DNA from: Tomocerus qinae | Lineage: Eukaryota > Arthropoda > Collembola > Entomobryomorpha > Tomoceridae | NCBI GenBank assembly: GCA_020055645.1 | Contig: CM034546.1 | Coordinates: 75,144,001-75,208,000 of the forward strand | Length of the DNA stretch: 64,000 nucleotides | Direction of reading: 5' to 3' | Shown here: one piece after another, positions 1 to 22,308 of the stretch | Numbering within the stretch: position 1 is the stretch's first letter | How the letters are laid out: each line of letters opens with the position of its first letter | The notes under the pieces: model-generated | The model's database searches: none | The model's input: the letters and a program-made list of their open reading frames with translations, nothing else | Told to the model about the DNA's origin: nothing | Position numbers and translations under genes: made by a program

Positions 1-14
1 ACATTTCTAGCAAT

Positions 15-1515: not shown

Positions 1516-1628
1516 GAATGATTCAAAACATTTGAATGAATAGAATGGTTTTAACCAATTTGACTAGTCTAAAATAATGTATTTTAACAATTTGTTTAAT
1601 AAATTATTTACAAAATTTACAAAAGTTT

Positions 1629-2132
1629 TTACAATTTCATTTTATTCATACCCGCTATACAGTCGCACGTCATATTCTTTTCGTTCCATAAACCTTTAAT
1701 ACGGGCTTTAACTTTAGAAACATATTCTTTGCCAGTCATGTTGCCATGCACATACCAGACAATGTCTCTGAACCGCTCACGATTATCCCGGCAGGCCAAA
1801 TGTCGACATCCAACAATAAAAGGCAATTTTGTCTCCTCATCGTAATTATAGTTTGCCATAGGTGGGTGCCATCCGTCTACTAAACTCCCAGAATAGTTTT
1901 GATTCACAGATAGAATAAATCTACTGCATGTTGGCGATGGGGGATTACCATCTTTATTGATTAATTTAAAAATATAATCATATTTTTCCACAGCATTCAT
2001 ATCGCAAGGCATATGATTGCAAGCAATTATTAATGGTACCTTCCTGTCTGGATCATAATCCCGAAAAGGTTCCAGTTCACCAGGTAGCTGTTCTGTAATA
2101 TCGGAAATAACCTTAAACAATGGACACTCCAT
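1629..2132 (-). CDS. Polinton accessory frame, unknown function
   Basis: About 167 residues from the Met chosen here. Two similar segments ending in CNHMPCD and CRHLACRD suggest an internal duplication with Cys-His pairs that might bind metal. No family is recognised. It is one of three consecutive minus-strand frames, each slightly overlapping the next, which suggests a shared transcript diverging from the capsid-side genes. Confidence 0.5.
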   Translation of the reverse strand: MECPLFKVISDITEQLPGELEPFRDYDPDRKVPLIIACNHMPCDMNAVEKYDYIFKLINKDGNPPSPTCSRFILSVNQNYSGSLVDGWHPPMANYNYDEETKLPFIVGCRHLACRDNRERFRDIVWYVHGNMTGKEYVSKVKARIKGLWNEKNMTCDCIAGMNKMKL

Positions 2133-2322
2133 TTTTCTTTTCTTCAATCTCCTCAAAAGAAATCCAGGGGCAATAATTGCTCTTTTCGGTAGTTTTAATT
2201 TCCGGCACCTGTTTCTCATCCGTCTTTAGCCCACTTGCAATTAGTTTTGCTTGAATTAAACGATATATATCTGGATCGTGATAAATTTCTTTGGGTATTG
2301 GAATGAACACAGAGCTCATCAA
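2113..2322 (-). CDS. Small Polinton accessory frame
   Basis: A 69-residue frame overlapping the next minus-strand frame by about 20 bases and abutting the preceding one. It is rich in Glu and Lys. No domain recognised. The tight spacing supports it as a real small gene of the element. Confidence 0.4.
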   Translation of the reverse strand: MMSSVFIPIPKEIYHDPDIYRLIQAKLIASGLKTDEKQVPEIKTTEKSNYCPWISFEEIEEKKNGVSIV

Positions 2323-2654
2323 ATATTTTGTGAATTTATAAAGAATTTGAAAACTTCTATTAAAACAAAAGCTACAACTGGTTGAATAATACTTCTATAT
2401 TTCGTTAACACGGTTTTTGCGGTTGATAAATTCCACTTTCTTCCTCTCAACAATAATTTAATAGCCTTTGAATACTTTGAAAGTTTCTTTTCTTCTCGCT
2501 TAGTCTGTTTAAATGAACTAAAATTTTCCAAACACTCAATTAAGCTTTTTATTTCGTCGTCAGTTGCTCTTTCTATTATCTGTTTTCCTTTTCTAGATTT
2601 AGAATTGGCAAATTGCTCTAGGAACGCTCTGTTGCGCTCGAACCTATCGAGCAT
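2319..2654 (-). CDS. Small basic Polinton protein with C-terminal hydrophobic helix
   Basis: A 111-residue frame: a charged helical N-terminal two-thirds rich in Lys, Glu and Arg, then a hydrophobic segment (VVAFVLIEVFKFF) near the C-terminus that could be a membrane anchor or amphipathic helix. Small proteins of this layout are common in Polintons and adintovirus-like elements, but I cannot name a function. Confidence 0.5.
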   Translation of the reverse strand: MLDRFERNRAFLEQFANSKSRKGKQIIERATDDEIKSLIECLENFSSFKQTKREEKKLSKYSKAIKLLLRGRKWNLSTAKTVLTKYRSIIQPVVAFVLIEVFKFFINSQNI

Positions 2655-3147
2655 AATGATAAAGTTTCAGCTAGATACTATTTGTATTTATACGCAGGAA
2701 ATAATTTGGTTTGTCCTTGACTACATTTGATTTTCCCTGTTTACCAACATATGACCTTGAGAAACCGGTTTATTTTTTTGCTTTTATCGTTTCCTGCTTT
2801 GTGAATTACCTTGGATGAGTAAAAAAGTGGAGTAACCGGTTATTACGACCTTGACTATTTCCTGGTTAGTACTATGGTAATGGTAAAAAACTATGAAACC
2901 TGTTTAATTTCCTACTGACCTTCACCATTTCCTGGATAGAGCTTACCTTGTCTGTTGATAAAAAAGGTGAGGTAACCTGTTTATTTTCCTTGAGAATTTC
3001 CCGATTGCCTTGGCTAACGTTCAAAAGTTGGATAACCTGTTTATTGAATTTACTTCCTACAGTAAACTTCATTCTTTGTAAACAAGATATTCGTATAAAT
3101 ACAAAGGTAAATCTCATTTACCAAATCAGTTCACTCTTGAAATCAAC
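2655..3147. promoter_or_regulatory. Divergent intergenic region with repeated AACC(G/T)GTTTAT motif
   Basis: The gap between the leftward and rightward frames holds at least five copies of a loose unit containing AACCGGTTTA or AACCTGTTTA followed by TTTCCTG-like words, near 2764, 2832, 2897, 2973 and 3033. It is the only intergenic region of this part of the element with divergent flanking genes, so a shared bidirectional promoter is likely. That is inference; no experimental sign is available. Confidence 0.45.
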
Positions 3148-3999
3148 ATGGACATCAGCAATATTAAACGGAAATTAGTCGAGCAGACTTTGAACGGAGA
3201 AATCGATCCAACAAAGACTAGAAAAATGTTAGACCCTAAGCTCTATAAGGAAGTTGTTGAACTAGCTCGATCTCTAAGCAATAACGAACCAACGCTTTCC
3301 TCATCAACCTCTCAACAATCATCCAATGTTGATCAAGTGAGTTTAAGCCCAAATCCCGTTTCACGATCTGAAGAGCCTTCTAAACCATCGTCCATCGAAT
3401 CGGATCAATCATCACCATCGGTAAGGAAAACGTTAGACCCTCAGCTTTATAAGGAAGTTCTTGAACTAGCTCGAACTCTAATCAATAACAAACCATCGCC
3501 TTCCTCATCAACCTCTCAACAATCACCCATAGTTGACCAAGTGAGTTTAAGTCCAATTCCTGATTCGGGATCTGAAGAGCCTTCTGAACCACCGGCAGAT
3601 CCGGTTGATCGAGCATCGTCTATACCTCCACCATCTTCCCCCGACGTGGATACTATGTATAGGTATGGTATTCTAACCCCTGGTGGTGTAAGAATTCCAG
3701 ACAATGAAGAACAAAACGCCCAGCAAATGAACACTCAGGACTCAGAGTTTAACAGTGAGATAAGCAGTGAAAGTGAATCTGCAATGCAGATTGATACAGA
3801 GCCCCCTGGAAATGCACCTGATCCTGATGACTATTTCAACATGGAGTCTCTCGATTCATTTGGAACTCGAACTCAGGTATCTAACTGCGATAAACCTAAC
3901 AATCCACTTTTTTCCAAACTAACTTTGTTCAAGTTGATAGCATTAGGTTTAAACATAGTTATTTTGAAGATAGTGACAGCTTTTACATTCACGTTTTAA
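3148..3999 (+). CDS. Ser/Pro-rich Polinton protein with internal duplication
   Basis: The 283-residue product is low-complexity. Two imperfect copies of a unit of about 85 residues carry the same words (LDPKLYKEV then LDPQLYKEV, and SSSTSQQS in both). Pro, Ser, Glu and Asp dominate the rest and a hydrophobic segment (LFKLIALGLNIVILKIV) ends the frame. No family recognised. Disordered acidic proteins with a C-terminal hydrophobic segment could be structural or membrane-associated virion parts, but this is not shown. Confidence 0.5.
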   Translation: MDISNIKRKLVEQTLNGEIDPTKTRKMLDPKLYKEVVELARSLSNNEPTLSSSTSQQSSNVDQVSLSPNPVSRSEEPSKPSSIESDQSSPSVRKTLDPQLYKEVLELARTLINNKPSPSSSTSQQSPIVDQVSLSPIPDSGSEEPSEPPADPVDRASSIPPPSSPDVDTMYRYGILTPGGVRIPDNEEQNAQQMNTQDSEFNSEISSESESAMQIDTEPPGNAPDPDDYFNMESLDSFGTRTQVSNCDKPNNPLFSKLTLFKLIALGLNIVILKIVTAFTFTF

Positions 4000-4052
4000 A
4001 AGAACAGGGCACAAGAAAACCTAGCCGTTTAGCCTTTTCAGCCTATGACGGG

Positions 4053-4388
4053 GTGGAAATTTCAAGCTATATCCACAAAGTTCTTAAACAGATTGCATGT
4101 ACACAGGAAAATGAGGTGATTCCAATGTTGAGAAATGCTGAGGGTGAAAGAGTGAAAGTAAAATCTGAAGCTTTTTGGGATCCGTTAGTTGCCTATACCT
4201 CTTCGGACAATAAAATTTCCTTCAGAGTACATCGTCTTCCCACCGGCGTTTATCAGTTTCACATTCTAAAGCGGGTTAATTCGCGATGGAGTAGCGTTGG
4301 GTGGGCGGGGCCAACACAAATTTACTCAGTCAAAGAAGCGAGAAGATTAGGTCTCTACATTAAAGATCTTGTTAAAGAATTGCACTAA
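4053..4388 (+). CDS. Small Polinton frame, unknown function
   Basis: About 111 residues with a compact alternating pattern (FRVHRLPTGVYQFHILKRV) that looks like a small beta-rich domain, ending in an amphipathic helix. No family recognised. It lies between the Ser/Pro-rich frame and the ATPase. The start was not determined. Confidence 0.4.
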   Translation: MEISSYIHKVLKQIACTQENEVIPMLRNAEGERVKVKSEAFWDPLVAYTSSDNKISFRVHRLPTGVYQFHILKRVNSRWSSVGWAGPTQIYSVKEARRLGLYIKDLVKELH

Positions 4389-4478
4389 GGCGAGTGTGAA
4401 ACAAAAAATAAATAAAAACCTGTCATTTAAAACATTTGCAACATTTGTAAAATTGAGTTTGATAAACTAACACACATT

Positions 4479-5165
4479 ATGGAGAATAGTCTCATCATGA
4501 AAATTCAACACCCAGCTAGAATTACAATATGTGGACCGTCTTCATGTGGTAAAACTGAATTAACTAAACTAATCTTGGAAAATGTTGACTCAATATTTGA
4601 TAAAAAAATTGACAAAATTATATATGTGTATGCGGCACACCAAAAAATTTACGATGATTTACAAAAGACAATTCCCAATATAATTTTCACGACAGATGTG
4701 GAAGATTTGGAATCACATTTGGGTGAAAATACTATTGTTATTTTCGACGACAAAATGTTGGATTTTTCAGAAAAGAAGAAAGATAGCACATTTATCACTA
4801 AATGGTTTACCGTGTTAAGTCATCATTTGTCTGTTTCAGTTATTTTAATACTACAAGCATTATTTGTAGATAATCTACATACTGCAATGATTAACACGCA
4901 GTATCTAATATTTTTCAATCAGCCAAGAGATAAAACTTCAATTTCAATTTTGTCACGTCAATTTGCGCCGGGAAAGCCAAAGTACCTGTTGGAAGCATAT
5001 GAAAGTGCAACAAAAAAACCTTTTGGGTACCTTTTCCTTGACTTTCACCAAGTTACAAATAATATATACCGTGTGAGAAACAGTGTGTTTTATGTACCAA
5101 ACCAAACTGAAATATACGTCCCCGAACAACCTTTACAGCAGCTTGTGAATCTCGTTTACCATTAA
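4479..5165 (+). CDS. ATP: Polinton packaging ATPase (FtsK/HerA type)
   Basis: A 228-residue P-loop ATPase. The Walker A motif GPSSCGKTEL lies near residue 20 and a Walker B-like strand, NTIVIFDDKM, about 70 residues later. Size and layout match the A32-like/FtsK-HerA ATPases that load DNA into capsids in Polintons and adeno-like viruses. Position upstream of the capsid genes is typical. Confidence 0.85.
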   Translation: MENSLIMKIQHPARITICGPSSCGKTELTKLILENVDSIFDKKIDKIIYVYAAHQKIYDDLQKTIPNIIFTTDVEDLESHLGENTIVIFDDKMLDFSEKKKDSTFITKWFTVLSHHLSVSVILILQALFVDNLHTAMINTQYLIFFNQPRDKTSISILSRQFAPGKPKYLLEAYESATKKPFGYLFLDFHQVTNNIYRVRNSVFYVPNQTEIYVPEQPLQQLVNLVYH

Positions 5166-5225
5166 AAGCGTCAAGAAAAATATCATTCACAACAGTTTTC
5201 AATAAACGATCATAGTGTTAACAAC

Positions 5226-6938
5226 ATGAATACTAAAAGGGGAGATATGTTAAATATTAATACTCATTTCATAGAAACTCTTCGAAGTGATGCAAAATCA
5301 AACCATTCAGATAACCAACCCAATCATTTTAAAAATACACTGTACAAACCTTTAAAATTTTTACCAAATACATATAATGTGGGGATATTAAGCACGTCCT
5401 TTACTGTGTTGAATGATCTTCTCTTTTCACCTTTAGAAAATAGAGACATGAAAGTTAAATCTGTCAGCTCTAGTGCCATTACATATCAAAAAACAGAGTC
5501 GGATATCAAAAAACAATTTCAAAAAATGTATGAAAAGGATGTGTCAGTTCAGGGAACGCCACGCCACACCTTCACAGCAATAGCTCAGGAAACGCCAAGG
5601 CAAGCTGTTTTTCAAAATAATACACTAGATGTAGTTATATTTATCCCTGATCTGCTACAGGGAGTTTTGTTACTAGACACTACGGAATGTATACCTGGGA
5701 CATATAAAAGTAAATTGAATGTTAATTATGATATGTGGGACAGAATTCCATTGAATACTAGAATAGTTTTTTATTATACTAGTGACGAGGAGCGAAAAAC
5801 CTACCAGTACATTGACAGTGTAAAGAAAACTAAAAATATATCCGATTATGTCGTGCAAGTGAACAGTCTTTTAAAAGCAGCAGAGCTTAATATCGATTTA
5901 TCTGTAAATTTTCAATATTTTAAAAGTATGGTAGTTAATTATAAATCTTCTCACCGTTTGAAAATCAACGACCCTTTAAAAAGTATTTTGGGGTTTGAAC
6001 AAGATGAATTTTCGCAAGGTGTCTCAAAATCAACCTATTTCTACGATGGCGCTGCATTTGAGAATATTCCAGATGGAAATATCGCATTTGATGTCATTGA
6101 TGTAGCGACTGGAGAAACGACAAGCATATCTGTAGAAAAAAGAGGACATAAAATACATGATTTTATACTCGCTGCAAACTTGGTATTTTCAGCAAACAAT
6201 TTGAAATTTTTCATTGACATGTGGGAAACTTCTTTATATAAAGTAAACCTTATTTACACCGCGTCTACAGATAATTCAACGCTTGTATTACCTCAAGATT
6301 TTGCCAGATCAATTGGTTTTTTACAAACCGAATTTTCACCGGGCGAGTATTTGGCAGACATGGCAACGGACCCTCAATTGTATTCAAACATTATGTTTGA
6401 TTCAGATATTGTTATTAAGGAAATCGTCACTTCTTTCCAAGTTAAAACTATTGAACAACCTCCTGATGTAAATGAATTAAATGTTTTGAGTGCTTTAAAC
6501 AAGGCATTTGGACGGTCGTGGATTAAAATCGATGGATCTAAATGTGTAGTTAGTTTAAGAGAATACGAAAATGTGTATTTACCTGATCGAATTTGCGATT
6601 ACTTGGGTATACAGAGAAAATCAGTTTTAAACCATCAAACTTTGTCTCTTGATTACCCTCCAAAGTCGGGTAGAATCTCACAGTACGTCAACATTGAATG
6701 TGACATTGTAGAAGCTAGCGGTGAAGGTGAATCACTTGTTCAAAATCTTGGAAGATGTTCTTTTGGCAAAATAAATAGTCCAGCATTAGTAACATTTAAT
6801 CCAGTTGTGTACAAGCCGCTGATATCTTCGGATATCAAGACTATTTGTGTCAAATTTACAAATCAGTTTGGTCAACTTTTGAACTTTGGATCAAACGTAA
6901 GTACAGTTGAGTTACACTTTAAACCAAAGTATCTATAG
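5226..6938 (+). CDS. Penton-like minor capsid protein of Polinton
   Basis: The 570-residue product begins with a conserved Polinton-type entry, in which FKNTLYKPLKFLPNTYNVG resembles the N-terminal jelly-roll signature of penton proteins. Length, beta-rich composition and the location between ATPase and major capsid gene support a penton (vertex) role. Only the N-terminal part gives a family signal by eye; the rest is assigned by context. Confidence 0.65.
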   Translation: MNTKRGDMLNINTHFIETLRSDAKSNHSDNQPNHFKNTLYKPLKFLPNTYNVGILSTSFTVLNDLLFSPLENRDMKVKSVSSSAITYQKTESDIKKQFQKMYEKDVSVQGTPRHTFTAIAQETPRQAVFQNNTLDVVIFIPDLLQGVLLLDTTECIPGTYKSKLNVNYDMWDRIPLNTRIVFYYTSDEERKTYQYIDSVKKTKNISDYVVQVNSLLKAAELNIDLSVNFQYFKSMVVNYKSSHRLKINDPLKSILGFEQDEFSQGVSKSTYFYDGAAFENIPDGNIAFDVIDVATGETTSISVEKRGHKIHDFILAANLVFSANNLKFFIDMWETSLYKVNLIYTASTDNSTLVLPQDFARSIGFLQTEFSPGEYLADMATDPQLYSNIMFDSDIVIKEIVTSFQVKTIEQPPDVNELNVLSALNKAFGRSWIKIDGSKCVVSLREYENVYLPDRICDYLGIQRKSVLNHQTLSLDYPPKSGRISQYVNIECDIVEASGEGESLVQNLGRCSFGKINSPALVTFNPVVYKPLISSDIKTICVKFTNQFGQLLNFGSNVSTVELHFKPKYL

Positions 6939-6943
6939 ATAAA

Positions 6944-7261
6944 ATGAGGAAAATTCTTTGTTTAGACGGCAAATGCGTCTTAGAACCATTGTCTGATACA
7001 CAAATTGGAGGAGGATTGGCTTTAGAGGCTCCTGACTATACTATTCCAATGTCTTCTAGAAATGTAAAGTCCAAAAAATCAAACAAAAAGTCATTAAAAA
7101 CAATAAAGAAAGCTGTAAAGCTGTCGAAAAGAAGAAAACAGATTGGCTCGGGTAGTCTGAAAAAGAAACAAAAAAGTGCAAAGAAGAAAGTTTTAAAGAA
7201 AAAGGTGGCAAAGAAAAATGTTAAAAAGAAAAAGTGTGGAAAATTTTTAGTTAGTCGCTAA
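6944..7261 (+). CDS. Lys-rich core-like protein of Polinton
   Basis: A 105-residue protein with roughly 40 percent Lys or Arg in its last 75 residues, following a short Gly-rich N-terminal part (IGGGLAL). It lies 6 bases after the penton-like frame and just before the major capsid gene. Strongly basic small proteins in this place are comparable to adenovirus core/mu-type DNA-condensing proteins. Function is inferred from composition and context only. Confidence 0.55.
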   Translation: MRKILCLDGKCVLEPLSDTQIGGGLALEAPDYTIPMSSRNVKSKKSNKKSLKTIKKAVKLSKRRKQIGSGSLKKKQKSAKKKVLKKKVAKKNVKKKKCGKFLVSR

Positions 7262-7282
7262 ATGACATTTGCGAAGTAAGCA

Positions 7283-8563
7283 ATGGAAGGAAAAGTTTTT
7301 AGTGGTTCTTCGTTAGTTGCAAGACCCGAGCTCGATTTATTTAATTTACCGGTGACAGATGTCTCCGTCTCATCGGAAGAATATCACCCTTATTTCCCCT
7401 TTTCAAGCGTTGAAAACGAGTTAAATCCAATCGAGTATAATATACTCGGAGATGGAATACATTATCTCGACTTGAGAAACAGTCCTTTACAAATTGCAAT
7501 TCAAGTTGTTAACTCTGACGGTAGTAATCTAGGCATAAACGACGACGTGGCTTTGGAAAACAATTTTCTCCACACATTTATAAATTCAGTAAACGTTGTA
7601 GTCAATGGGAAAGACGTATCCGATGCTACGTCAATGAATCCATATCGTGCGTACATTAAAACTTTATTGACGACTTCAAAGGATGAAAAGGAAGGTTCTC
7701 TCACTTCGCAGGGATGGTATACTGACACTAATCCAGACGATAACCAAAACAATTCTGGATATACAAAGCGAAAAGCTTTAATTGCAGGTTCGTCTGTTGT
7801 GGAATTTGTTGGATACCTTCAATCGTCTATATTAGATCAAATAAAGTATTTACCTAACAACCTCCCTGTAACAATAGGGTTACGAAGAAGTCGTCCAGAA
7901 TTTTGTCTGTCTTCGCCTACAACTACCAAAACATACAAAATTAATCTACTTAAAGCCGTTTTACACGTTAAAAAGGTGACATTGCATGATCACATGCTGA
8001 CAAGTCAGCAACACTATTTTACAAGAGAACCGGCAAAATATCCAATACGTGCCGATAATCTAAAATCTTATAACATTCCACAAGGACAACTTTCGTCTAT
8101 TAACGATTCAGTTTTCTCGGGGCCAATTCCCGAGTATATGGTTGTTGGACTCGTGGACTCTTCAGCGTTTTCGGGTGTTTTAAACAAAAGTCCATTTAAT
8201 TTTCAACCTTTTGATTTATCATCTATTGGAGTGTTTGCCGATGGTAAGCCTGTGTTATACCAAGTTCAAACTTTTAATTTTGAGAAGAAACAATATTTGA
8301 TGGGCTTTAGAACCCTTTCTTCTGCAGGACAAAAGGAATGTGGCATTGATAGAGATACCTATATAAAAGGTAACACACTTTACGCATTAGCATTACTACC
8401 ATCTAACAAGGGTGGTCGTTTTCAATTAAACAAGGCTGCAAAAATTACTCTCGATCTAAAGTTTGCCAAGGCCTTGTCTACATCTGTCACCGTTGTTGTC
8501 CTAGCCCAGTTTCAAAGTCTTGTCGAAATTGACCAGTATCGAAACGTTTCTATTGAACAGTAA
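7283..8563 (+). CDS. MCP: Polinton major capsid protein (double jelly roll)
   Basis: The 426-residue product shows the Polinton hexon-like pattern: LDLFNLP near the start, then an NPIEYNILGDG and YLDLRNSPLQ block, a VNVVVNGKDV strand, and NPYRAYIKTLL. Family members form the pseudo-hexameric capsomers of the shell. Length is at the short end for the family. It is followed directly by the protease that processes virion proteins in related viruses. Confidence 0.85.
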   Translation: MEGKVFSGSSLVARPELDLFNLPVTDVSVSSEEYHPYFPFSSVENELNPIEYNILGDGIHYLDLRNSPLQIAIQVVNSDGSNLGINDDVALENNFLHTFINSVNVVVNGKDVSDATSMNPYRAYIKTLLTTSKDEKEGSLTSQGWYTDTNPDDNQNNSGYTKRKALIAGSSVVEFVGYLQSSILDQIKYLPNNLPVTIGLRRSRPEFCLSSPTTTKTYKINLLKAVLHVKKVTLHDHMLTSQQHYFTREPAKYPIRADNLKSYNIPQGQLSSINDSVFSGPIPEYMVVGLVDSSAFSGVLNKSPFNFQPFDLSSIGVFADGKPVLYQVQTFNFEKKQYLMGFRTLSSAGQKECGIDRDTYIKGNTLYALALLPSNKGGRFQLNKAAKITLDLKFAKALSTSVTVVVLAQFQSLVEIDQYRNVSIEQ

Positions 8564-8566
8564 ACC

Positions 8567-9064
8567 ATGGATGGAAATACATTGTTGGCATGGTTGAGGG
8601 TTTTGTACAAGGATCTTCACATACCGATAAGATCAAGATCATTTTACGTCATTGCTGCAGATGAAATGAATCAAGTCGACTTTTCGTCTATTTCATATCC
8701 CATTTCAATTATAATGAACACGGATAAACGGAATTCGCCTGGGGTACATTGGATAGTGTTTTACTGCCCTGAACCTTATGTTTATGAATATTATGACTCG
8801 TTTGGAAAGAAGATTGAATACTATAATCTACAAAAACCACCTGGAATATTAAAGCATTCATTTACAATTGCTACTCAAAATATTGATTCTAAAGTTTGTG
8901 GACAAATGTGTATTTTGTTTTTATTTTATAGGGCTTTCGGATATGGTATTTACGATAATTTTATGAGTATGTTTGATTGTGTAAAAGATATTGAAAAATA
9001 TGCTAAAAAGTTTTATGAAGAATGTGAACCGCAAATTTTGTGGCGATTAAATAGAAACTTTTAA
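8567..9064 (+). CDS. PRO: Adenain-like cysteine protease of Polinton
   Basis: A 165-residue protein with the adenain/Ulp1-type order of landmarks: His in GVHWIVFYC, Asp in EYYDSFGK, and Cys in KVCGQMCILFLF, with an oxyanion-type Gln just before the Cys. This family matures capsid and core proteins. It starts 3 bases after the major capsid stop, so the two are probably co-expressed. An AATAAA occurs shortly after the frame near 9128. Confidence 0.88.
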   Translation: MDGNTLLAWLRVLYKDLHIPIRSRSFYVIAADEMNQVDFSSISYPISIIMNTDKRNSPGVHWIVFYCPEPYVYEYYDSFGKKIEYYNLQKPPGILKHSFTIATQNIDSKVCGQMCILFLFYRAFGYGIYDNFMSMFDCVKDIEKYAKKFYEECEPQILWRLNRNF

Positions 9065-9190
9065 ATTTTTTATATAATTATGCTCAATTAATTTGTGTTA
9101 AAATGTTAATTTTATATTTATGAGTTAAATAAAAATGTATTGAAAAACAATTTACAATTCAGTCTTTATTTCTCATAAAAATTTATAGCC

Positions 9191-10257
9191 TCATAATTTA
9201 ATAAGGACCCCTGAGCGGGTGCGGCTGGGTCCAACCTCCGCCGCTGGTGACACTTCACGAGTGCGGTAGGGACGTCTCACAGCAGGGGGCGCTATCGGGC
9301 TTTGATACTAAAAAATTGTAATTTATTTTTATTATCACAGGGACATGATTACAAAATAAATTTAAAAACTTACAAGAATTTCTTCTTCTTCAGAATCCGA
9401 TATTATTTCCGCGGGAATTTCATTTGGCGGGTTTGGCCGAGGTGCGCGGGTCACGCAGAGACGTAGAGCTTGGAGCATATTCCGGGGGACTTCAGCATTC
9501 CTGGCCAAAAGAGCGCGAAAACGTAGATATGTGTCAGGGACGACACGTAGTCCATAACGGTAGACGACGCCCCCTGCCATCGCCACGCCTACTACCACGC
9601 CAATTGCGATTCCTTGGGGAATTTAAAAAATATTTTTAATTTTAATTTTTGGTTGAATTTATAAAAGGCAATTTTTAATACTTTAATTAAATAATTCTTA
9701 CCAGCATAAATTTGCCCACCACCACCTTCATTTTCAACTTCACTAGTTGTTGACTGTACTGATGTTGGAGTAAAGGAAGGGCATCTGGCTGATAAATGTG
9801 GTCCTATGTAGTAGGACGATGGGCCAATGTCTCCTTCAGAAGGAAAGCATCCACTTGTACCGTTCATATAACGGGCAAACCAGCACCCCATATTGGCACA
9901 TTGGCGGCATAGCATTGTCAAATTACAACCTAAAAAATAATTTTTTCATTTAATAAATAATAAATTCAAATAGAGGTTTTCCCACAATCGGTTTCTTCCA
10001 GAAACCGATTGTGTGAAACCGTTTATTGCATCTGATTCTAATTAGACAATTTCCCACAATCGGTTTCTTCCAGAAACCGATTGTGGGAAACCGTTTATTG
10101 CATCTGATTCTAAATAGACATTTTCCCACAATCGGTTTCTTCCAGAAACCGATTGTGGGAAACCGTTTATCGCATCTGATTCCGAATGAATAGTCTATTG
10201 TAACAAATACCAATGATAATAATAATAATTTCAAATAATTGTTTTCATACCTGACAT
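9191..10257 (-). CDS. Four-exon gene for a small single-pass membrane protein
   Basis: By splice consensus the coding exons on the minus strand are 10251-10257, 9702-9929, 9374-9612 and 9191-9307, giving 196 residues with consistent phases (1, 1, 0). Acceptors and donors are all AG/GT (TTTTTTAG, GTAAGA, GTAAGT). An AATAAA lies at 9165-9170 on the minus strand, just past the stop. The N-terminal third is Cys-rich (MSGCNLTMLCRQCANMGCW) with no clear signal peptide. Residues about 78-95 form a Gly/Val/Ala transmembrane helix (IAIGVVVGVAMAGGVV); the tail holds an acidic patch (SDSEEEE) and ends in a Pro/Arg-rich segment. I recognise no family. It lies between the Polinton and the ML-GH28 gene and could be a host gene or Polinton cargo; introns argue for host. 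Confidence 0.55.
9981..10159. repeat. Three 72-bp tandem units, each with a 35-bp near-perfect palindrome
   Basis: Units begin at 9981, 10053 and 10125, an exact 72-base period. Each starts with an inverted repeat with arms CCCACAATCGGTTTC and its complement around a short TTCCA loop. The first copy has a changed base in the right arm. The array sits in intron 1 of the minus-strand membrane-protein gene. Confidence 0.9.
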
Positions 10258-10304
10258 CTTTGATTAATGAAAACAGTCTTGGCAAGTGCTTGGCAAGCAA
10301 TTTC

Positions 10305-10530
10305 GTCTCGGTGAGAAATTTGATAGTAAACCTTTAACAATAATTTTCACTCACAAATAATAAAAACAATCTTGACAAATTCGCCTACGGCTGTTCCAAA
10401 TTCGTCCTCACCGTGAAATTATGGTAGTAAACCTTCAACAATTTGCTGTCTATCTTTGACAAATTCACCCACGGCTGTTCCAAATTCGTCTTCACTGTTG
10501 GCGACAAGTAGAGTAAACCTTTAACAATTA
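10305..10530. repeat. Degenerate tandem repeat of about 70 bp
   Basis: Three diverged units near 10305, 10375 and 10450 share GACAAATTC, GGCTGTTCCAAATTCGTC and GTAAACCTT(T/C)AACAAT. They lie upstream of the minus-strand gene's first coding exon. They may be promoter-proximal repeats or part of an element end; no further identification. Confidence 0.7.
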
Positions 10531-10592
10531 CTTGTTGGTCACAAGATGAAGGAGAGAACGATTCATTTTTAAATGAACGCGCTCTGGTATTG

Positions 10593-10654
10593 TTTCACTA
10601 GACACAGTTGTGTCTAGTGAAACCAGCCGACCCCCTAAGACTCGGCTTAGGGGG
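10593..10654. repeat. Two adjacent perfect hairpins
   Basis: Positions 10593-10622 form 14-bp perfect arms (TTTCACTAGACACA and complement) around GT. Eight bases later, 10631-10654 form 9-bp arms (CCCCCTAAG / CTTAGGGGG) around six bases. Two stems side by side could be a cruciform-forming element end or a structured transcript. Confidence 0.85.
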
Positions 10655-10928
10655 TTGGTTGGGTGATTTGGTACATTTTGTTTAATTGCCATTACTACTA
10701 ATACTGTATATATAAAGGTTGGCAACTTAGTCTTTATAATTATAATATTAGAATGTTAATATCAGAAAGATATAAAATCCTTAGAAAACCAAAGATAAGC
10801 TACACAGCAGACTTTATTAAATAAATACTCTAGTTAGTTGTTTATTCCATTCGTGTAATATTTTTTGCATGTTTTGTTAAACTGTGATTAAAATCAATAA
10901 TTCTGTTTAACTGTTTCAAGTTATTTAG

Positions 10929-13278
10929 GATGAAAATATTAATATTTTAAGCATTGTTATTCCGTTGACATTTTCGTTGGATATACTGGCTTATCCCCAA
11001 TCAAAAGTACAACTGTGGGCTTCAAATCGCCAAGAAAGGCTTTCCTTCCAGAAAGATGCATGGTTGAATGCTGACTGCGGTAAATAATTCTAATTTATTG
11101 TAAATTTACTAAATTTAGTACCATAGTAATAAATATTGTACTAGTATTATATCATCCATATTATTATTATACTAAAAATTGACGCATACCAATTTCATTT
11201 TTACTATAATTTCTGCAAAATTATTTGTCAAATAAATACTGCCTACCTATAAATTTTTACCTTTTTCAATACAATTTATTTACTTATCTCCTCTATTTTG
11301 TTTAGGCTCTGCAGGGACAATTCTTGGAATGACAGTTGGAAACTGTACTGGAGTACCCGAGTGTAACATCATTACTAAAAGAAAGTTCAATATTCGTCTT
11401 CATTTTATTCCTAGTAAGTAGAAATTGTTTTCAATATTATATCAAAATCAAGTTATTTTGAGGCGTGCATTTAATTATGTACACTTTTATAATGTAGGTG
11501 TTGCTAGTTCTGATTTGCTTTGGATAATAAGTGCTGTAATTGATGACAGGGAAGTAAACATGCTGGTTGACACAATAGAAGGTTCTGTTCTACCTGGTGT
11601 TGCTTATACCATTGATTATTCTCTGATGTTTGGTAGTCAATCGGAAGGGGTATTCAGTTTCCCTAATTTTAATTTTCATATTATTACCTATACAGTAAAT
11701 ATAAATATATAATTATAAATCATGAAAAAGTGAAATATTTTTTATTCTAGACGAAGTTTCTGACGAAATTTAAAATAATTGACCGATCGTCGACAATATA
11801 TGAAATCTGCAGCTCTATAACATTGGATCTTAGTACTTGGCACATGGTTCCTGAAATCCTTAGTAGAATCAAAGCTCCAACATTCCCAGATCAAGATTTT
11901 GTGATAACAGACTACGGGGCTGTAGCCGATGGGGAAACTGACAATACTGATGCTTTTAAAATTGCTATACTGAACTGTAATATTGCTGGGGGTGGGCGAG
12001 TCGTCGTTCCAACAGTAATGACTGATCAACAATATTTTATTAATTATCTACAAATATCTTAACGCTGACTTATAATACTTTGTGTGTTGGAATTAGGGAT
12101 TCTTCTTAACAAGCGCGATTAGGCTTTTGAGTAACGTAAATCTTCACTTGACATCTGGAGCCACGGTTCTATTTACTCAAGACACTAGCAAGTATCCAAA
12201 TGTTTTAAGTCGTTGGGAAGGAATGGAACTGATGAACTACTCTCCACTTATTTATGCTTTTGAAGCTGAAAATATTACAATCACTGGAACAGGCGTACTT
12301 GACGGAAATAGCGACTGCGAGCATTGGTGGCCTTGGAAGGGAAGAAATTCCAATCTGGAGAAATTATGCGGAATTATCGAAGGATTCCCGACTCAGGAGG
12401 AAGATCGAAATATTCTTCTTGACATGGTCGAGAGAAATGTGTCTGTAGAAGAAAGAGTATTTGGGGAGGGACATTATTTACGTCCTCAATTTGTGCAGCC
12501 CTACCGTAGTAAAAATGTTCTGATCGAAGACATCACTTTGATTCGTTCTCCAATGTGGATTCTGAATCCTGTCCTCTGTGAAAATGTTATTGTCCGAGGC
12601 GTGACTATCAACAGCACCGGACCAAACTCAGACGGATGTGATCCAGAATCGTGCAAAGATGTTCTGATTGAAAACGTCAAGTTCCAAACGGGGGACGATT
12701 GCGTTGCAGTTAAATCTGGAAGAAATGCTGACGGACGAAGACTGAATGTCACTTCTGAAAATATTATCATTCAGAATTGCGAAATGGAAGATGGACACGG
12801 CGCTTTTTCTATCGGCAGTGAAATATCTGGGGGAGCCAAACACATATTTTTCCAGAACTGCTCAATGAACAGCCCCAATTTGGAACAGGCGTTAATATTC
12901 AAAAACAACGCTGTAAGGGGAGGTCTAATTCAAGATATCTTCATCAGGAATATTCGTATTAATGAATTGTACACAGGACCAAGTCTGACCAGAGGAATGG
13001 CACTGTCGATTGATTTTTACTACGAAGAAGGACCAGCAGGAAATTACAGGCCCATTGTCAATAATGTCGACATCCGCAATGTAACGTCGTCTACCGCTAA
13101 TTACGCTTTGTACCTACGCGGATATCCTGAATACCATATTGATGACATTCGACTCTACGATTGTCATTTTGAAGAAGTTGTTCTACCGAATGTCATTGAA
13201 AATGTTAACTTTCTTTCCCTTTCCAATGTCACTGTTAATGGACAAATAATCAATGGAACTTCAGTTAGTTATAGTTAA
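10929..13278 (+). CDS. ML (NPC2-like) domain fused to GH28 pectinase
   Basis: Coding exons by consensus and phase: 10929-11079, 11306-11413, 11498-11649, 11751-12014, 12097-13278; about 618 residues. A hydrophobic stretch (LSIVIPLTFSLDILA) suggests a signal peptide, but an initiator in this frame is not visible: the ATG at 10930 is in another frame and stops after six codons. Either a short first exon is missed or the start is shifted. Residues about 47-163 match an ML/MD-2-type lipid-binding domain (ADCGSAGTI, NCTGVPEC, closing Cys in YEICSS); the usual middle disulfide pair is absent. Exon 4 continues unbroken from ML into GH28 (VITDYGAVADG, about residue 188). GH28 landmarks are present: NSDGCD, TGDDC and GHG; the RIK site reads IFK. 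GH28 hydrolyses polygalacturonan. Its style (RWEGMEL, NYSPLIY) is bacterial. Confidence 0.82.
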
Positions 13279-14949
13279 TTACTTAATTCTATTGCTTGAC
13301 GCTGTAACTGTAACCGTTGCGATTAATAATATCCACTTTTTAAAATTCATAAAAAAAATTTTGTAAAAAGATACCAGTGCTTTTTATTCAGTATTTGTAG
13401 ATATGAAAATTTCAACTTTATTTTTTTCGATATTAAAATAACGTTGCTAATGAGAATTGGTTTTAGCTCACCCGAGGAAGGAGCTAGCGTATAGAATCGT
13501 TCTCCGGTTAATTAACACGAACCTTCAAATGAATAAACGAAATTTCACACAAAATGGTGTTTTTCATCTACAAAATATTTAATGCCGCCTTTACCAAAAA
13601 CTTAAATTAGTAACAAACGAGTTAAAACCTAAAAATAATTAACCTAATAAATTTGATGCTCAGTATATAATTTGTTTTACCTTGGCCTTTACTTGGCAGC
13701 CGAAATCACGTGAATTCAATTTACAGTTTACATGCCGTTAAGCACCGCCCTTCTATGGAACTAAAATCTAGAGTGTATACAACCGCTCAAACAACCGCTA
13801 TTTATTAATTTCTATCATTTCATTTCACGACCCTGTTTATATTAAATGGCTTGACGTAAACGTTTAACATCAGTAATTAACAGTTCAATACGTAGCGATT
13901 TCTTTTCTGCGTGGGCACAGACTTCATAATTTAAAGCCAAGATAGCAAATAAAACCTTTCGTAGAAATAGAAATAAACGTTGATTACATATTGTTATATT
14001 TCATTTATGCTTGAACGGTTACATACAGCACCGGTTGCTTTGGCTAAAAATGCCCTGTGACTAATCTTCTTAGTCAAACTCTATCTAGCTACATTATTCA
14101 GTTAAGTTTTTATTTGCTGGTTTTTTATTTCATACTTTTACTTATGCTTTTAAATTACACATTACATAATATAATAGTAGGTACCCATTTTTATAGCATA
14201 CCCAGTAATTTTTAAAAGTATACATGACATAATCCACTTTCGTGTTTATTTGAACTTTTATTTCATTATATAATTTTTCATGGCGACATGAGACGGCACG
14301 TTAAGGTACATATTAAGTCTGAAAACAGTATTATTTGTAGCAGACGATTCGGAAATTAGAATTTTCGTTCTTCCTCTTAACGCATCACTAGAATCACTAC
14401 TATATAATTAGGCCATTAGGTTTTCTTTCTTTTATCATCAATTGCTGTGTAAAGTTTGCCTGCGATTTTAGAATATTTTTATTTCGAACCAGGAGACTCT
14501 GCAGTGAACTTCTTATATTATAATATACTAGTAACTAAACTATAATAAATTTCCTCGACTTCTTGTAACTATTTCCGTAGACAAGATTGCTACCTATGTG
14601 TAAAAGGGGATTAAATATACTCATAGATTGCCACAGCTAAGTGACGGACCACACCAATATTAGTCCAATCCAATAAAAGAGATCCAGTGGGAAACAACGC
14701 TGCCTCATCCTATCTACACTAATTAAACTCCTTACGCCTGTCCTTATCAATCAACACAGAACTGCGCTCAAAAAATTCTTAAAATTCGTTGCTTACTGGG
14801 ATTCATCGTCATTATTTCCTTCTTGAAAATTGTTTCCACTATACTGCATAGGGGACCTAACCAACTATAAAAAATAACTGTATGTATCAATTTTTACACA
14901 TCTCAAAAACAAAATTTGAGGCTGTAAATCAAGAAAACTCGTATTGATA
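13279..14949. other. Intergenic, no gene seen
   Basis: AT-rich DNA of about 1.7 kb between the ML-GH28 gene and a chemoreceptor. No coding exon with splice support, RNA gene or repeat stood out on either strand. Confidence 0.6.
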
Positions 14950-16327
14950 ATGATTTCAAAAAAGTACTTGAGATGCTTGGCATTCTCGGTAAAAATGGCA
15001 CTGTTCTTTGGTGGGCTGTCTTATCGGTGGGATGAAAAACGAAGCATCATGATAAAGACCAATTCTAAGTTCCAATCACTGAAATGCACTGCTGTCATGT
15101 GTACCCTATTAACACATATATTTGTAGCGACTATCAGACTATTGCATCACTTTTCCATTACGGGCATTTTAAAAGATCATGAAGCTAACTTAACTTTTGC
15201 CATAGCAGTAGCTGTTCTGCCACTTTTTATTATGGCCATTCAAAACCTAAGAGTTTCTAAGCAGTTGGTCCATTGTGGAAATATATCTCGGCTTCTCATG
15301 TTGAAATTTTCAAGTAAGTGAGAAATCCTTGTAAAGATTATTTTATTTACTTCTAATAACATTAATTTTTTTGAATTTCATCTTTATAAATTGTTATTAC
15401 AGAGGAGCACTTCAAAAATCCTAAACTAAACATTACATCCACACTGGATAATTTACTCGTCATAGCGTCAATCGTAGTTTTCAGCATGCCTTCATATGCA
15501 CCTGTTTTCTACTACTACACGCAAGATTCAATGTTACATTTACCAAATTTAATTCCAAGCCAATATCGAGGGGATAATTATTTCTACTACATGATTGTGC
15601 TTGTGTATCTACTAATCTTAACATTTTATTTTTATGGAATTACATCGTATATATGGTGTTCACTTTTAATTCACTTGATGAATTTCTACTGCATTATAAA
15701 AGTCTGTAAAGAAATAAGGTAAATTCCGTCGTAGTTGAATTAAAGGAATCATTGTCTTAAGTAATAATAATGATGAGGAGAAGGTAATTTCGGTTTGAAA
15801 ATTGCTAATTAATTAACTTTAATTTCAATTTCAGCTATGAGAAAAAATCACAACTAACAAAGGATTCAGCGAGAGAAATTGAATCGATGGTGAACATTGT
15901 ACGATCGCTCCATATAATAATGCAAGTTTTTGACGAAGCATACCGATATTATTTTGTACCATTAAGGTCAATACTTTTGAGATCTGTGGTTACGTGTAAT
16001 TTCCTTCTCATTACCTCTCATTCAACAATGAATGTATTGGAGATGACAGTGTTATTAAATGGCATATTGAATTGTGTTTGTGTATGGTTGGGAGTAATTA
16101 TTGCAGGAGCGTATTTACACAAAGCAAGCAAAAGGTGCAAAAGGTCCTGGAAATTGTATTCGAACTCCAGCAATCAAAAAGTTGAACATTATGTTCAAAA
16201 ATTCTGTTTATCTTGGAAGCCAATGCAGATAAAAATTGGGGACGTCTCATCAATTTCTCGAAAAACAATTCTACGATATATTTCTGTGATAAGTAGAGGC
16301 ACGATGAAATTGTTATTTGTAAAATAA
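14950..16327 (+). CDS. Seven-transmembrane chemoreceptor (insect gustatory receptor type)
   Basis: Three exons, 14950-15313, 15403-15718 and 15835-16327, join in phases 1 and 2 to give 390 residues, the usual size for arthropod gustatory/odorant receptors. Several hydrophobic helices are visible (AVAVLPLFIMAI, LVYLLILTFYFYG, NCVCVWLGVIIAGAYL), and the C-terminal part carries the family's last helix region with conserved Ser/Thr and a basic end. The first ATG in frame was chosen at 14950. AATAAA overlaps the stop at 16323. Ligand cannot be told. The paired receptor at 26.8 kb has the same three-exon design, so both probably belong to one expanded family. No stop or frame lesion seen. Confidence 0.8.
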
Positions 16328-17469
16328 AGGATTGATTGTGTAGAAATACTACATGTAGATGGAAGAGTATTATTATATGTAGGTATTCATTTAATTATTG
16401 CAAAATTAAAATCAGATCTTCATTCTTTTAATTTAAGCTTTATCCGACCTCGTTATCAATCTGACGGCCTCTAAAGCAGAAGAATTACTGTCACATTCGA
16501 GCACTTTATTTTACTGTACCCTTTCTTTTATTCAGTACTTCTAAAATCTATTTTCCATAAACTCCAATTTCCTTTTCTAAAAGTAACCGGAAATTCCCTT
16601 TGTTGTTAAATGAATAATTCATTTTGATGCTATGTATTTTATGAACTAAATGCCAATTCCGTTTTAAAAAATGCTAATTATTTTGTTTTATCTTATATGG
16701 CCTTTCAATATTAGTAGGTAATCTAAACTCATTCATGTATAGGCAATAATAGACAATAATTTTTTCATCTAAACTAATTTAAACTGGGGATGGAGAAAAC
16801 CTAGTTGGCTATGTTATTACAGTAACAAACATGTACACATTTTTCAAATAAATTGTTCAAAACTATCCACTTATATACACAAATGACAATTACGACCTTA
16901 ATAGTATACTCTTTTCAAAAGCATTCATTTCCTTTCCAACACACGAAAAAGAAACTCGTACATAAAATTATAGTTTCTGTAACTATCAATTTATATTAAA
17001 ACCACTACAATTCTTAGGTTTCTTCGTGGAAATTGTAAACCATTGAAGGAATTAAACGTAATTTAACAAAATAACAATAAATTCAGATTGACGAATTTAA
17101 TTTTCGGTGGATATAAATGTTATAGTTAAATGACTACAGTGTAGAAAGCCCAAATTGGTATACCTATATACTTTATATAGATTATAGAATAGATGATTCC
17201 GAATAAAAGACATTAAACAATTGCATGATGTTAGCAATTAGTATCTATCAAAATCCCTACGCTTTAGGGCGTTTCTTAGGAATGACATGTAAAATGATGT
17301 AATTACTAAACCAGTATTTATGTATAGTGAATATGACAATTACCTATGACTAATTAATAGTATCGTAAGTTGCATTATTTTGAAATGATTTTGAACTTTA
17401 TGTTATGGGCTGGCTTCCGAAAAACATGATGAAAAAAACCTTGATTGATTGATTGATACTACTCATGAT
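16328..17469. other. Intergenic, no gene seen
   Basis: AT-rich DNA without recognisable coding exons. A short GATT run (four units) lies just before the transposon at 17470. Confidence 0.6.
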
Positions 17470-17851
17470 CAGAGTTCTATTTTAGCCGGCTTTTTTACAT
17501 TTTACCCACCCACCCGGGCAAAAGGGGCAAAGGGGGCAAAAGGGGTAAAAGGGGCAAAAAGTCTAAACCGTAGTTCATCTACCAAAATAGATGTCGCGTC
17601 GATGTCTCTTCGTTTATACGTACCAAAAAACAGGCTTACTAGAATATCATTAACTCCGAATTTCAATGGCAAACAGTTAGTTTACTTGCGTGAGTTAAGT
17701 TTGAAATTTTTTTGTGCTATTTTTAAAACCTTAATTTTACTTTTGCCCCTTTTGCCCCTTTTGCCCACTAGCCACCTGACATTTTGCCCGCCCACTAGCC
17801 ACTTTTGCCCCCTAGCCACCTAGCCACTACCCACCGGCCAGTTGAACTCTG
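17470..17851. mobile_element. Non-autonomous hAT element (MITE), 382 bp
   Basis: The ends are CAGAGTTC and GAACTCTG, and both sides are flanked by the 8-bp direct duplication CTCATGAT (17462-17469 and 17852-17859). Eight-base target duplications and CAG-type ends are typical of hAT elements. The interior is a run of GGGCAAAA units on the left and its complement TTTTGCCCC on the right, so the whole element can fold back. No transposase. Confidence 0.9.
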
Positions 17852-17859
17852 CTCATGAT

Positions 17860-18266
17860 ACAACATGCCCTTGATAATCTTCGAGAACCTCGGCCCTGGT
17901 GATAGGGATATATATCAACATGTCATATAAGCATATGCCTAACGAAAAAATTATACATATGTATATAAATACATTAATTTTTACGTGTATAAATAAATAA
18001 TAATTAAGTATACCAGCCTAAATACCATTGCATTATAATGTATATCAGCAATCGAATGAAGAGAATTTCAACAGAAAATACTGTTTCTGCAAAACATCCA
18101 CTTATATTTAATATCAATCTACTTATCTACTGGTATAAAATTCCACTTTGGAAACATTCGTGGTTAGTAGCACTGCTTACGATCCAAATCGAACAACCAT
18201 AATTATACAAAGCCTCAATACTATATATTGAGTAGGAAAACAAAAAATAGAATACAAAGCTTTACG
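17860..18266. other. Intergenic, upstream region of the CUB gene
   Basis: About 400 bases with no gene; presumably contains the promoter of the CUB-domain gene. No clear motif beyond AT-rich words. Confidence 0.4.
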
Positions 18267-19564
18267 ATGAAGAATTTTACAAATAAATTATTTCTTGGTG
18301 TATCTCTGATACTAATCTTTACAATTTCTCATGGCCGTTCCAGCTTACTTAAAAGTAACATGGAAGACTTAAGTAAGATTAAAAGTTAATAATTATCATT
18401 GGTGGTATGTAAAAAGAAATTTTAATGTTACACAATCCAAATAACTTGTTTAGGTGCCAAGAACAAATTTTCGAGCTTTCAAGAAACTACGCCAACCCCA
18501 GAACCAATTAGTAAGTCAACTAGAATTAAAATTTGATAAAATGAAATACGAAAGCATCCAAGTGTAAATATATTATAACATTTTTGATGTTAGTCTCAGA
18601 ATGCGGTGGCGTACTTGAAGGGACGTCGGGAATAATTGAATATTCCATAGACCATGAATATAATGACTCCTTACGTTGCCTTTGGACCATTCGTACTAAC
18701 CCGCCAACCACACATATAGAATTAACTAAAGAATTCAGTGCATTTGAATTTCCTTACGACTATCTCACAGCATTCAGTTTTGTGGCAAGGAGTGGCCTAA
18801 ATTCAACGGAAATTATGTAAATTTTTCACAAATTTTAATTTCTCTGCCATGCAGTAAAAAATCCATGTTTTCATACTCTAAATAGATTTACTCTCTTTTA
18901 CCGACGTTTTTAGAGTTTTGCGATTTAAAAAGTAATTAAATTATATCAATGATATAGGGGAGTGACAACAAACAAATCGGAGACAGTATTGATGACCGGA
19001 TCTGTAGTGATACTTCAATTTTCGTCCGACATGTACATCACGGGAATGGGATTCCGCCTTCGATTCAGAGCCGCTGGAGAACCTCAGCCTCTTATTGCCC
19101 ACAGCTACGACATGAATTCCGGGGAATCTCCCTCCATTGTAGACTACTACTTTGGCAACAATTCCTATCACGATAATGATCTATCTACATTTGTTTTATC
19201 CACCGATTATAAGGCAAGCTCAGGGAAATTTTATCAGTTGAAAATTACTTTTTATTCATTGGAAAATTCCTCTGGATGTGCTCATGATGCTATTATAGTC
19301 TACGTAATTGACCGAGACAATATTCAACAATTTGCTAAGTAAGTCACACTTCACACTTTCCTGGCTTTTCTCTTAAACTAGTATATTAGTGTGGTATTTG
19401 AAAACCTAGATAATATTCATTCTTTTATTATTTAAACTTTTAGGCTTTGTGGAGACTCTGCTACAGGTGTCACCTATTCTGTAGATACATCGTTTGTGAT
19501 AGTGTTTTATAGTGATGAATCCATTGGGAAGTCGGGATTTAAAGCATTATGGGAAAAACAATAA
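18267..19564 (+). CDS. Secreted protein with two CUB domains
   Basis: Five exons: 18267-18372, 18454-18510, 18594-18816, 18958-19338 and 19444-19564, with phases 1, 1, 2, 2 and consensus borders; 295 residues. The N-terminus is a signal peptide (NKLFLGVSLILIFTISHG). A short Thr/Pro linker (ETTPTPEP) leads to a first CUB domain (ECGGVLEG, RCLWTI, VVILQFSSDMYITGMGF) and a second, shorter CUB-like half (GCAHDAIIVYV, LCGDSATG, IVFYSDES, GFKALW). CUB domains mediate protein or sugar binding in extracellular proteins. No protease domain follows, so it is CUB-only. AATAAA overlaps the end at 19563. Function in the animal is unknown. Confidence 0.82.
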
Positions 19565-22308
19565 TAAATAAGAGGACACATTGTAAAAAATAACCTTCAA
19601 AATTCTTGTTAGAATTTATTTGTATATTTTGTTAATACTTTCAGTATTCTGTACTTTTAATTTCAAATGTTATAGTTTTCTGAACACAAGAATTTTATAA
19701 GTTAAATTAAATACGGTACAAAATCTAATATAAATGATTCTAAACGTATAAAAGGTTTCTAACCATGACCATGATCTTAGCAATTATGGTAGGAGTACTC
19801 ATGTATCATGTCAAAAACAGATTTCGAAAACATTTTCTTATTATAACCCGAAATCATAATCATTCATATACCTATAGTTATATAAAAACCATCAAACCTA
19901 AAAAACCCGGGGTCGAAAATTTTTTTCCTAAAAAACCCTGGTTTTTCGAAACCTTGGCTGAAATTATCTTTTACTCCTTATTGCCCATTCACAAGAAATC
20001 TAGAATGAAAATTTCTTAGATTCAGGGCTGCAGCAAGCTAGGGGCACCGGGGCACTTGTCCCCTCCCCCCGAAATCGAAGATAAAACTTTTGTCCAAAAA
20101 CTCAAAATCGCTTAAATTATTATTAAACTATAAATTATTTTTTGTCGCCGCATTTCGGGGGTGGATTGTAAAAATGGTTACCTTTTTGCTGTTTTGCTTT
20201 TTTAAATTTCTGAAGTAGAATAAAAAATAAATAAAATATCTCATTCTGTAGTCCAATTATTTTTAGATTAGTGTTCTATTGATTTAAAAACACTATTTAG
20301 CACTCAAAATGTTTTATATTTGTTTGGTTTATGTAGTTTTAGACTGCCTTCGTCTTTATGCATAGGTGAAAATTGTTTTTTTGTTCCTTGACGGACTACA
20401 GATTACCTACCCAAGAAAAATTAATTACATTACCTTTCCACATACAGATACAATGCTGTAATATTGTAGTTTACATTTGAAACATAGTCTTCTATACTAC
20501 GTAATCAAAGATAATTATTTTTGTCATGAAATCAATTTATGACGTCAATAGAAATCCAGCGAGAGATTATCAGTCTATGTAGTCATTTTCTGACGTCAAT
20601 AGGAGGTAACGTAAAACGACATTAACCTTTTATTATACCTTTTATTACCTATATTATACCGAACGTATTATTATGTAGATTAGAATTCATCTATAATAAA
20701 TATTTAATGTTAATTGAATGCCGTAAGGTGTCAAATCACAATATCTCTAATCAAGGTAGCGAAATCTAAATGTATATACATTTTAAGGTTTTCAACTGAA
20801 AATAGCAATTTTCATTGAGGTAACATTAAAATCAGCGTACAAACTACCACTTACCAGTGGTAAGAGGTTTTAATGGTACTAGCGAAATCATTGCAATCCC
20901 AGACAAAAAAATATTGAAGGGCTTTAAGAATCTCGTGGAAAATAATTATAGGAGGCTCCCAGTAAAACTTGGCAAATTGAGAAAGGTAGGCGTCCAGCAA
21001 CCATTAGCAGATAAGAATTGATAAGTGTGTTCTTCAATCAGAGTTGGATTCAACCACTAATAGCCCTTATTTGCAGATTGATTTGCATTTGTGACGTTTG
21101 ACAAACCTCCTCTGTATGTTTATAATTGTAATCTTAAAACTTGAGATAAAGCAGAGAATTCACTTGTATATACGAGTGTCAGACACGTATCCAGAAAGGT
21201 CAAGAGGGCACAACCAAAAATAATGTCAAAAATGCGAAAAATTTTTGCAATGTTTTGGAAACAATCCTCTCTTTCTGCGGACCCCCGCCCCCATACTGGA
21301 TACGTTCTTGACGAGTGTATCCTATGACAAGTAAATATAGGGCATCAGAATTATTTAATTGTATTAATTGCATAAATAGAAAGAAGATATTTAACCTATA
21401 CCTATTACTTTATAATAATCAAACATGAATCAATACATTTTGGGCATTGAAATTTTCCCGACAGTAACCGAATTTTAAATGAAAAATGAAACTGTTGCCA
21501 CTCAGGTATACCGTGATCTCTGGGACATTTCCATTAAACTCTATCTATAGGGTCACGTCTAATCGTTATGCAGTTTCCGGACTTTCCCGTTATAAGATTA
21601 AATATGACGATCTTACTAGTCTCATGTAATATTAATACAAGAATCATACGAGAATGACAATCGCATAAGATGTGTGTTTGAGTCTAAATAAATAGGCGAA
21701 AGAACATTATGTAATTGTTAGTGAACAAACGCATGCATACATAACATCTCTTGTCAAACTTAGTTTCTGTAGACATTGTCTGTACACACAAAATTATAAA
21801 TAGAAGACGCAGACATAGTTAATATTATGGAGAGCTAAAACACGTAAAACTCGTTTGAAGTACACCCTAAGCTCTCAATGCAATCACACAATAAAAATAA
21901 GTTTGAATGGATGGAAAACCCTCCCAGCAATCAAAACTATTAGATTCGATTTATGTGATATTATATGCCAACCTTTGCTGTACAGTAACAGTTACCTCTT
22001 GTCTTGGATGTCTTCCTTCCCCTTCAATAAATATTTTTAAATTCGTCTGCCTTATAGATTAGAGATTAGACCTATTTTTTACAAATAGTAGAAGTAGTAT
22101 ATAAGTGTTTGCAGTCCAGGCAAGAATCTCCAATCAGAATTGTAAACAGCCATCGACACATCCAAGATAAACTATTCTACTTAAATTTTGTTACCACTCA
22201 CTTGGGAACATTTAACACTAAAAACAACTTTACCGAATACCAATAGCTCAGAACAAATTTTCCAGGTAAGTATTTAGCAACATCAAATTTAAAATAATGG
22301 ACCCTAAA
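19565..22308. other. Long intergenic stretch with transposon relics
   Basis: About 2.7 kb without a supported gene. Around 20033-20085 a GC-rich patch (GGGGCACCGGGGCACTTG) looks like an old repeat fragment. At 21185-21304, ACGTATCCAG and its complement bracket 120 bases, a possible short MITE without visible target duplication. A splice-donor-like CCAGGTAAGT at about 22264 ends a possible 5' untranslated exon. Confidence 0.5.
20833..21130. mobile_element. Diverged, one-ended copy of the CAGTGTAC hAT MITE
   Basis: The start CAGCGTACAAAC and the following ACCACTTACCAGTGGTAAG match the left end of the intact element at 22595. About 180 bases further, AATTGATAAGTGTG and GGATTCAACCA match its interior near 22806. 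The right end was not found, so the copy is truncated or too decayed to see. The end coordinate is approximate. Confidence 0.55.

Follow-up and report, generated by a model that had tools for sequence, protein, structure and literature searches.

Horizontally acquired GH28 pectinases are known from the genomes of beetles and stick insects, and microbial pectinase in an animal genome is reported in PMC11311677. Another such case of a microbial pectinase in an animal genome is the subject of our analysis. The window, a stretch of 64,000 nucleotides from contig CM034546.1 deposited for the springtail Tomocerus qinae, carries a five-exon gene (10929-13278, forward strand), read from DNA, in which a GH28 exo-polygalacturonase directly follows an ML (NPC2-type)-derived domain. 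This fusion within one gene is real and was confirmed. It exceeds a chance arrangement, because its five exons are kept in a paralogue, its architecture is kept in two further proteins, and both halves are constrained. The beetle and stick insect enzymes came from other donors, and we know of none that is fused to a host domain. In the literature searched (titles and abstract openings), no description of an ML-GH28 fusion was found. The gene is composed of the following features:

10929..11079, + strand: exon 1, with signal-peptide region, linker and beginning of the ML domain (..NADCG); reading frame of the start codon disrupted in the window copy; from splice sites and paralogue comparison
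11306..11413, + strand: exon 2, ML domain, with a phase-1 intron on either side; exon bounds as in the host ML genes L007, L008 and L118
11498..11649, + strand: exon 3, ML domain, with a phase-0 intron at its end; intron place as in L007, L008, L118 and L097
11751..12014, + strand: exon 4, final ML strands and GH28 N-terminus in a single frame
12097..13278, + strand: exon 5, remaining GH28 part and stop codon; arginine of the RIK motif replaced by isoleucine in the window copy; PF00295 match
11061..11834, + strand, introns included: ML-derived domain, exons 1-4; from profile match, hhalign, tree and shared introns
11835..13275, + strand, one intron included: GH28 exo-polygalacturonase part, exons 4-5; from Pfam, tree and fold search

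All four introns are of the GT-AG type (11079/11306, 11413/11498, 11649/11751 and 12014/12097; phases 1, 1, 0 and 0) and sum to 493 bases in the window copy, whose conceptual protein comprises 618 residues before the stop codon. Within exon 4, IYEICSS and ITDYGAVADG lie 29 residues apart in one open frame with no stop between them, and the joint of the two halves falls at about 11834/11835 (..LDLS/TWHMVPEIL..). The original prediction, that the last ML strand and the first GH28 strand share one open exon and that the upstream exons join it in matching phases, was thus borne out.

The same architecture was found in other proteins. Of 7999 proteins scored in a protein database poor in animal proteins, 120 were listed, and among these P0001 and P0002 have the whole ML-GH28 architecture. 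P0001 (614 residues) is encoded on a 1979-base contig and is probably an mRNA, since this contig leaves no room for the 493 intron bases. P0002 is HA402_005979 of the fungus gnat Bradysia odoriphaga, lies on a 2.28-Mb contig and is 61-65% identical to the window protein; the GH28 distance between the window copy and rows of the P0002 type amounts to about 0.4-0.5 changes per column. A search for further fusions with residues 1-172 of P0001 returned P0001 alone, and a search for longer relatives gave 85 matches. Among 205 proteins, only P0001, P0002 and P0003 had ML-profile matches above the inclusion line. In P0003 an ML start (43 bits) is located behind the GH28 part, after an apparent phase-1 intron behind C-G, and P0005 and P0018 were seen by eye to end at the same C-G. 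This pattern suggests head-to-tail ML-GH28 units. In P0004 and P0005, similarity to the rest of the family breaks off precisely at the intron 4 position, where a codon fits a splice acceptor by eye; intron 4 may be common to these proteins, too.

The GH28 half was recognized by its family model (PF00295) with 85.4 bits at a gathering cut-off of 22.9. The catalytic aspartates and the GHG histidine are identical in all 122 aligned rows, including the window copy and its paralogue; these residues and the RIK arginine are part of the GH28 motifs. In the tree this half nests among Acidobacteriota-type enzymes, whose mature N-terminus is retained right behind the ML part. By its sequence relationships, the GH28 half is assigned to a bacterial exo-polygalacturonase of the Acidobacteriota type. 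Bacterial contamination as a source of the window gene was rejected, as the gene contains introns and is located on a contig of 140 Mb.

Several lines of evidence connect the N-terminal half to ML proteins. When four ML parts were combined into a profile, the ant NPC2 chain 3wea ranked first of 177,635 PDB sequences (E 0.006). An hhalign comparison with the host gene L097 extended over 115 columns at a probability of 97.5; L097 scores 20.4 bits with the Pfam ML model, just under the cut-off of 22.7, and L007 scores 54.8 bits, well above it. A search with L097 gave 20 places, including exon 2 of the window gene (E 0.0067). L007, L008 and L118 have introns at all three ML intron places of the fusion in the same phases, some acceptors being read by eye; of these introns, one is absent from L097 (intron 2) and one from L117. 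The last exon of L118 is identical to the first residues of exon 4 of the paralogue in 11 of 20 positions without a gap; L118 stops twelve codons past the shared EIC, where the fusion continues into GH28. In a tree of 11 rows, the fused domains group with L118, L117, L097 and L116 (support 92/92) on long branches. Via L097, the 3wea profile match and the introns shared with L007, the fused domain can be regarded as ML-derived and homologous to accepted ML sequences. Concerning the former label 'NPC2-like', ML homology held, and the domain is better assigned to an ML subfamily in this genome that is divergent and has four cysteines. L114, L115 and L116, stand-alone genes that likewise encode four-cysteine ML proteins of the L097 type, are clustered at C5:19.45-19.49 Mb, which suggests that the subfamily has expanded locally.

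A number of observations weigh against an ML assignment. Missing ML similarity in a profile search had been named beforehand as refuting evidence, and the Pfam ML model (PF02221) indeed gave no match to the fused domain, which stays below the gathering score; the assignment rests on the other evidence given above. A genome-wide search with PF02221 gave 9 places, with neither of the two ML-GH28 genes of this genome among them, and a PDB search with the ML part as a single sequence yielded 3 chance matches, the best with an E of 0.72. The 3wea match spans only profile positions 4-50, and hhalign aligned three other host ML genes over 63 columns only, at 91.8. NPC2 has six cysteines, of which the fused domain keeps four (residues 50, 64, 70 and 157 in the conceptual translation). 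These four are invariant in the 4 aligned fused copies, which were picked for having the domain, and the stand-alone L097 and L118 are four-cysteine proteins as well. Hence, the lack of a cysteine pair is not due to decay after the fusion. In the structure model of P0001, strands are predicted in the ML part, but the quality there is poor (residues 41-160; blocks of predicted local distance difference test, pLDDT, of 32-69). Fold searches with the whole model listed no ML chain, their lists being filled by GH28 chains.

Besides the window copy, the genome contains a paralogue at C1:74.743-74.746 Mb, 0.4 Mb away, with the same five exons, an intact hydrophobic start and intact catalytic residues. 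A whole-genome search with P0001 gave at least 7 matches. They represent exons of two ML-GH28 genes, each located on C1, as well as one stand-alone ML gene on C2; the genome may hold GH28 genes of other kinds. At the DNA level the two copies are similar at 10754-11114 (70%) and 11303-13307 (86%). Rates of nonsynonymous (dN) and synonymous (dS) change between them resulted in a dN/dS of 0.27 for ML (116 codons) and 0.16 for GH28 (452 codons), with p 7e-6 and p 2e-19, respectively, in Fisher tests of nonsynonymous versus synonymous change. As judged from these ratios, both halves are under constraint, with dN of 0.132 in ML versus 0.040 in GH28. Synonymous divergence was 0.49 for ML and 0.25 for GH28 (12097-13275; p 0.018), and gene conversion could have lowered it in the latter. 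Three features make the window copy look damaged. As assembled it has no usable start: the frame beginning at 10929, formerly taken as the gene start, lacks a start codon, and the homologue of the paralogue start, an ATG at 10930, opens a frame of six codons before a stop. The RIK arginine is replaced by isoleucine, whereas 121 of the 122 aligned rows, the paralogue among them, have arginine. Unique changes are in excess over the paralogue with each of four outgroups (25:11, 32:9, 25:1 and 17:3; p 0.02 to 3e-6), which indicates faster evolution. The gene in the window probably represents a duplicate, now in decay, of the intact paralogue, although its start may represent an assembly error instead of a true frame break.

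The best overall explanation, in which we have good confidence, is that a bacterial exo-polygalacturonase was joined in frame to a host four-cysteine ML gene. An Acidobacteriota-type gene, cut at the mature N-terminus of its enzyme, would have been linked to the final exon of a four-cysteine ML gene that stood alone in the host lineage, resulting in a single intron-bearing ML-GH28 gene. Capture of the host gene start and the ML part is supported by the shared introns, the L118-like last exon and the bacterial N-terminus right behind the ML part; the idea that an acquired pectinase took over the secretion signal and fold of a host ML gene gains support from the same findings. The host signal peptide now at the front of the bacterial pectinase would export the protein from the cell, probably to the gut, where the GH28 part would free galacturonic acid from pectin chain ends by exo-cleavage and the ML domain might serve as a folding and targeting module. 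That this domain holds a lipid or a lipid-coated surface is the weakest step and is put forward only tentatively.

The main rival to such a binding role is that the ML half is a mere carrier, providing promoter, signal peptide and solubility. This is a serious contender, somewhat short of an even chance. It would agree with the faster change of ML than of GH28 between the copies and with the absence of one NPC2 cysteine pair, but the ML dN/dS, the invariance of the four cysteines among the selected fused copies and their occurrence in stand-alone L097 and L118 argue against it. The N-terminal domain could also be a beta-sandwich of another kind, such as a fibronectin-like domain, which precedes GH28 in a Yersinia exo-polygalacturonase. 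The missing Pfam ML match would fit, and Foldseek aligned 2uvf/2uve with the full-length model across 620-640 columns, but at a root-mean-square deviation of 14-16. Since no other Pfam family matches the domain either, and since intron places and last exon are shared with host ML genes, hhalign links it to an ML gene just below the Pfam cut-off, and it takes its place in the ML tree, we consider this very improbable. Strongly disfavoured is a wrong chaining of two adjacent ML and GH28 genes. Although the model is intron-bearing and read from DNA alone, and the window copy has no in-frame start, the joint inside exon 4 neither needs nor has a splice site or stop, and the paralogue, P0001 and P0002 show the same chain.

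A further difficulty for a simple origin in the host lineage is the fly record, which has the same gene as a non-dipteran genome. TTAGG repeats, as (TTAGG)6, had 400 overlapping matches in the genome versus 0 for the reversed control. According to passages of PMC8977481, a telomeric tandem repeat is absent in 16 of 16 Diptera examined, and springtails have TTAGG. Because of its TTAGG telomeres the genome is very probably non-dipteran, and a springtail fits. At the start of the small unplaced contig C105 (L151, 1-1530), 229 CCTAA units occur within 1.5 kb, interrupted by CTTCTT tracts, and no TTAGG/CCTAA array was present at the examined ends of large contigs. Transfer between arthropods, descent with loss, and contamination are all possible. 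That the gene was inherited from an ancient hexapod and lost in most lineages is a reading we hold with considerable doubt: the GH28 distance could come from an old split, and absence elsewhere weighs little in a database poor in animals, but wide loss would be required and, of the 120 proteins listed (out of 7999 scored), B. odoriphaga is the one named animal. A contaminated or misnamed B. odoriphaga record, with the gene confined to the lineage of the window, is improbable. It is a single record and the other relatives carry no organism names, but P0002 lies on a contig of megabase size and differs from the window protein by about one third. GH28 proteins of unusual size are also reported in B. 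coprophila in the passages of PMC12198962, their link to this family not being shown. A more far-reaching scenario, unlikely in its entirety, is that the chimaera was born in a springtail-like soil arthropod with TTAGG telomeres, was later passed as intron-bearing DNA to fungus gnats, and was strung there into ML-GH28 repeats, with ML targeting lipid surfaces.

Next to the ML-GH28 gene, open reading frames of a mobile element were found at 258-9064, with an integrase core (PF00665, E 3.3e-9), a weak ATPase match, an adenovirus-type protease match (PF00770) of 21.0 bits, under the cut-off of 21.3, and two large frames without Pfam match. The element is Polinton/adintovirus-like. No terminal inverted repeats linking the gene to it were found in 1-20000, only a local palindrome. 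Between element and gene, at 9969-10170, a near-palindromic unit of 57-58 bases is present in three tandem copies. Further downstream, the window contains an open reading frame at 23471-24673 for a domain of terpene synthase family 2 (PF19086, E 5.3e-9), unusual in an animal and perhaps acquired, and at 35707-48412 a local family of related frames with DnaJ-type CXXCXGXG cysteines (35707, 39255, 44120 and 47213).

Of the closest known systems, the GH28 exo-polygalacturonase of Thermotoga maritima (PDB 3jur) differs from the fusion in being bacterial and in having neither ML domain nor introns. Stand-alone host ML genes (L118, L097, L007) share signal peptide, ML sequence, and intron places and phases with the fusion, but have a stop codon where it continues into GH28. 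With NPC2 (3wea) the domain shares its start and the first cysteines in the profile match, and differs in its cysteine number (four of the six in NPC2) and in its lack of a Pfam match. Acquired pectinases were already known in arthropods; here the path from bacterial to animal gene is readable, as the mature enzyme of the donor, joined to a host exon end, would have acquired introns, a complete domain and the signal peptide of the host. Why one chimaera is shared by an arthropod outside the Diptera and by a fungus gnat record is a puzzle. In B. coprophila, three GH28 proteins of about five times the fungal seed size with repeated GH28 features are reported in passages of PMC12198962. These resemble the proteins considered here as fungus-gnat GH28 near galacturonidases with a size that fits repeated units, but are described with repeated GH28 only, in passages without mention of ML. 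Our results suggest a new reading of these large multi-GH28 proteins.
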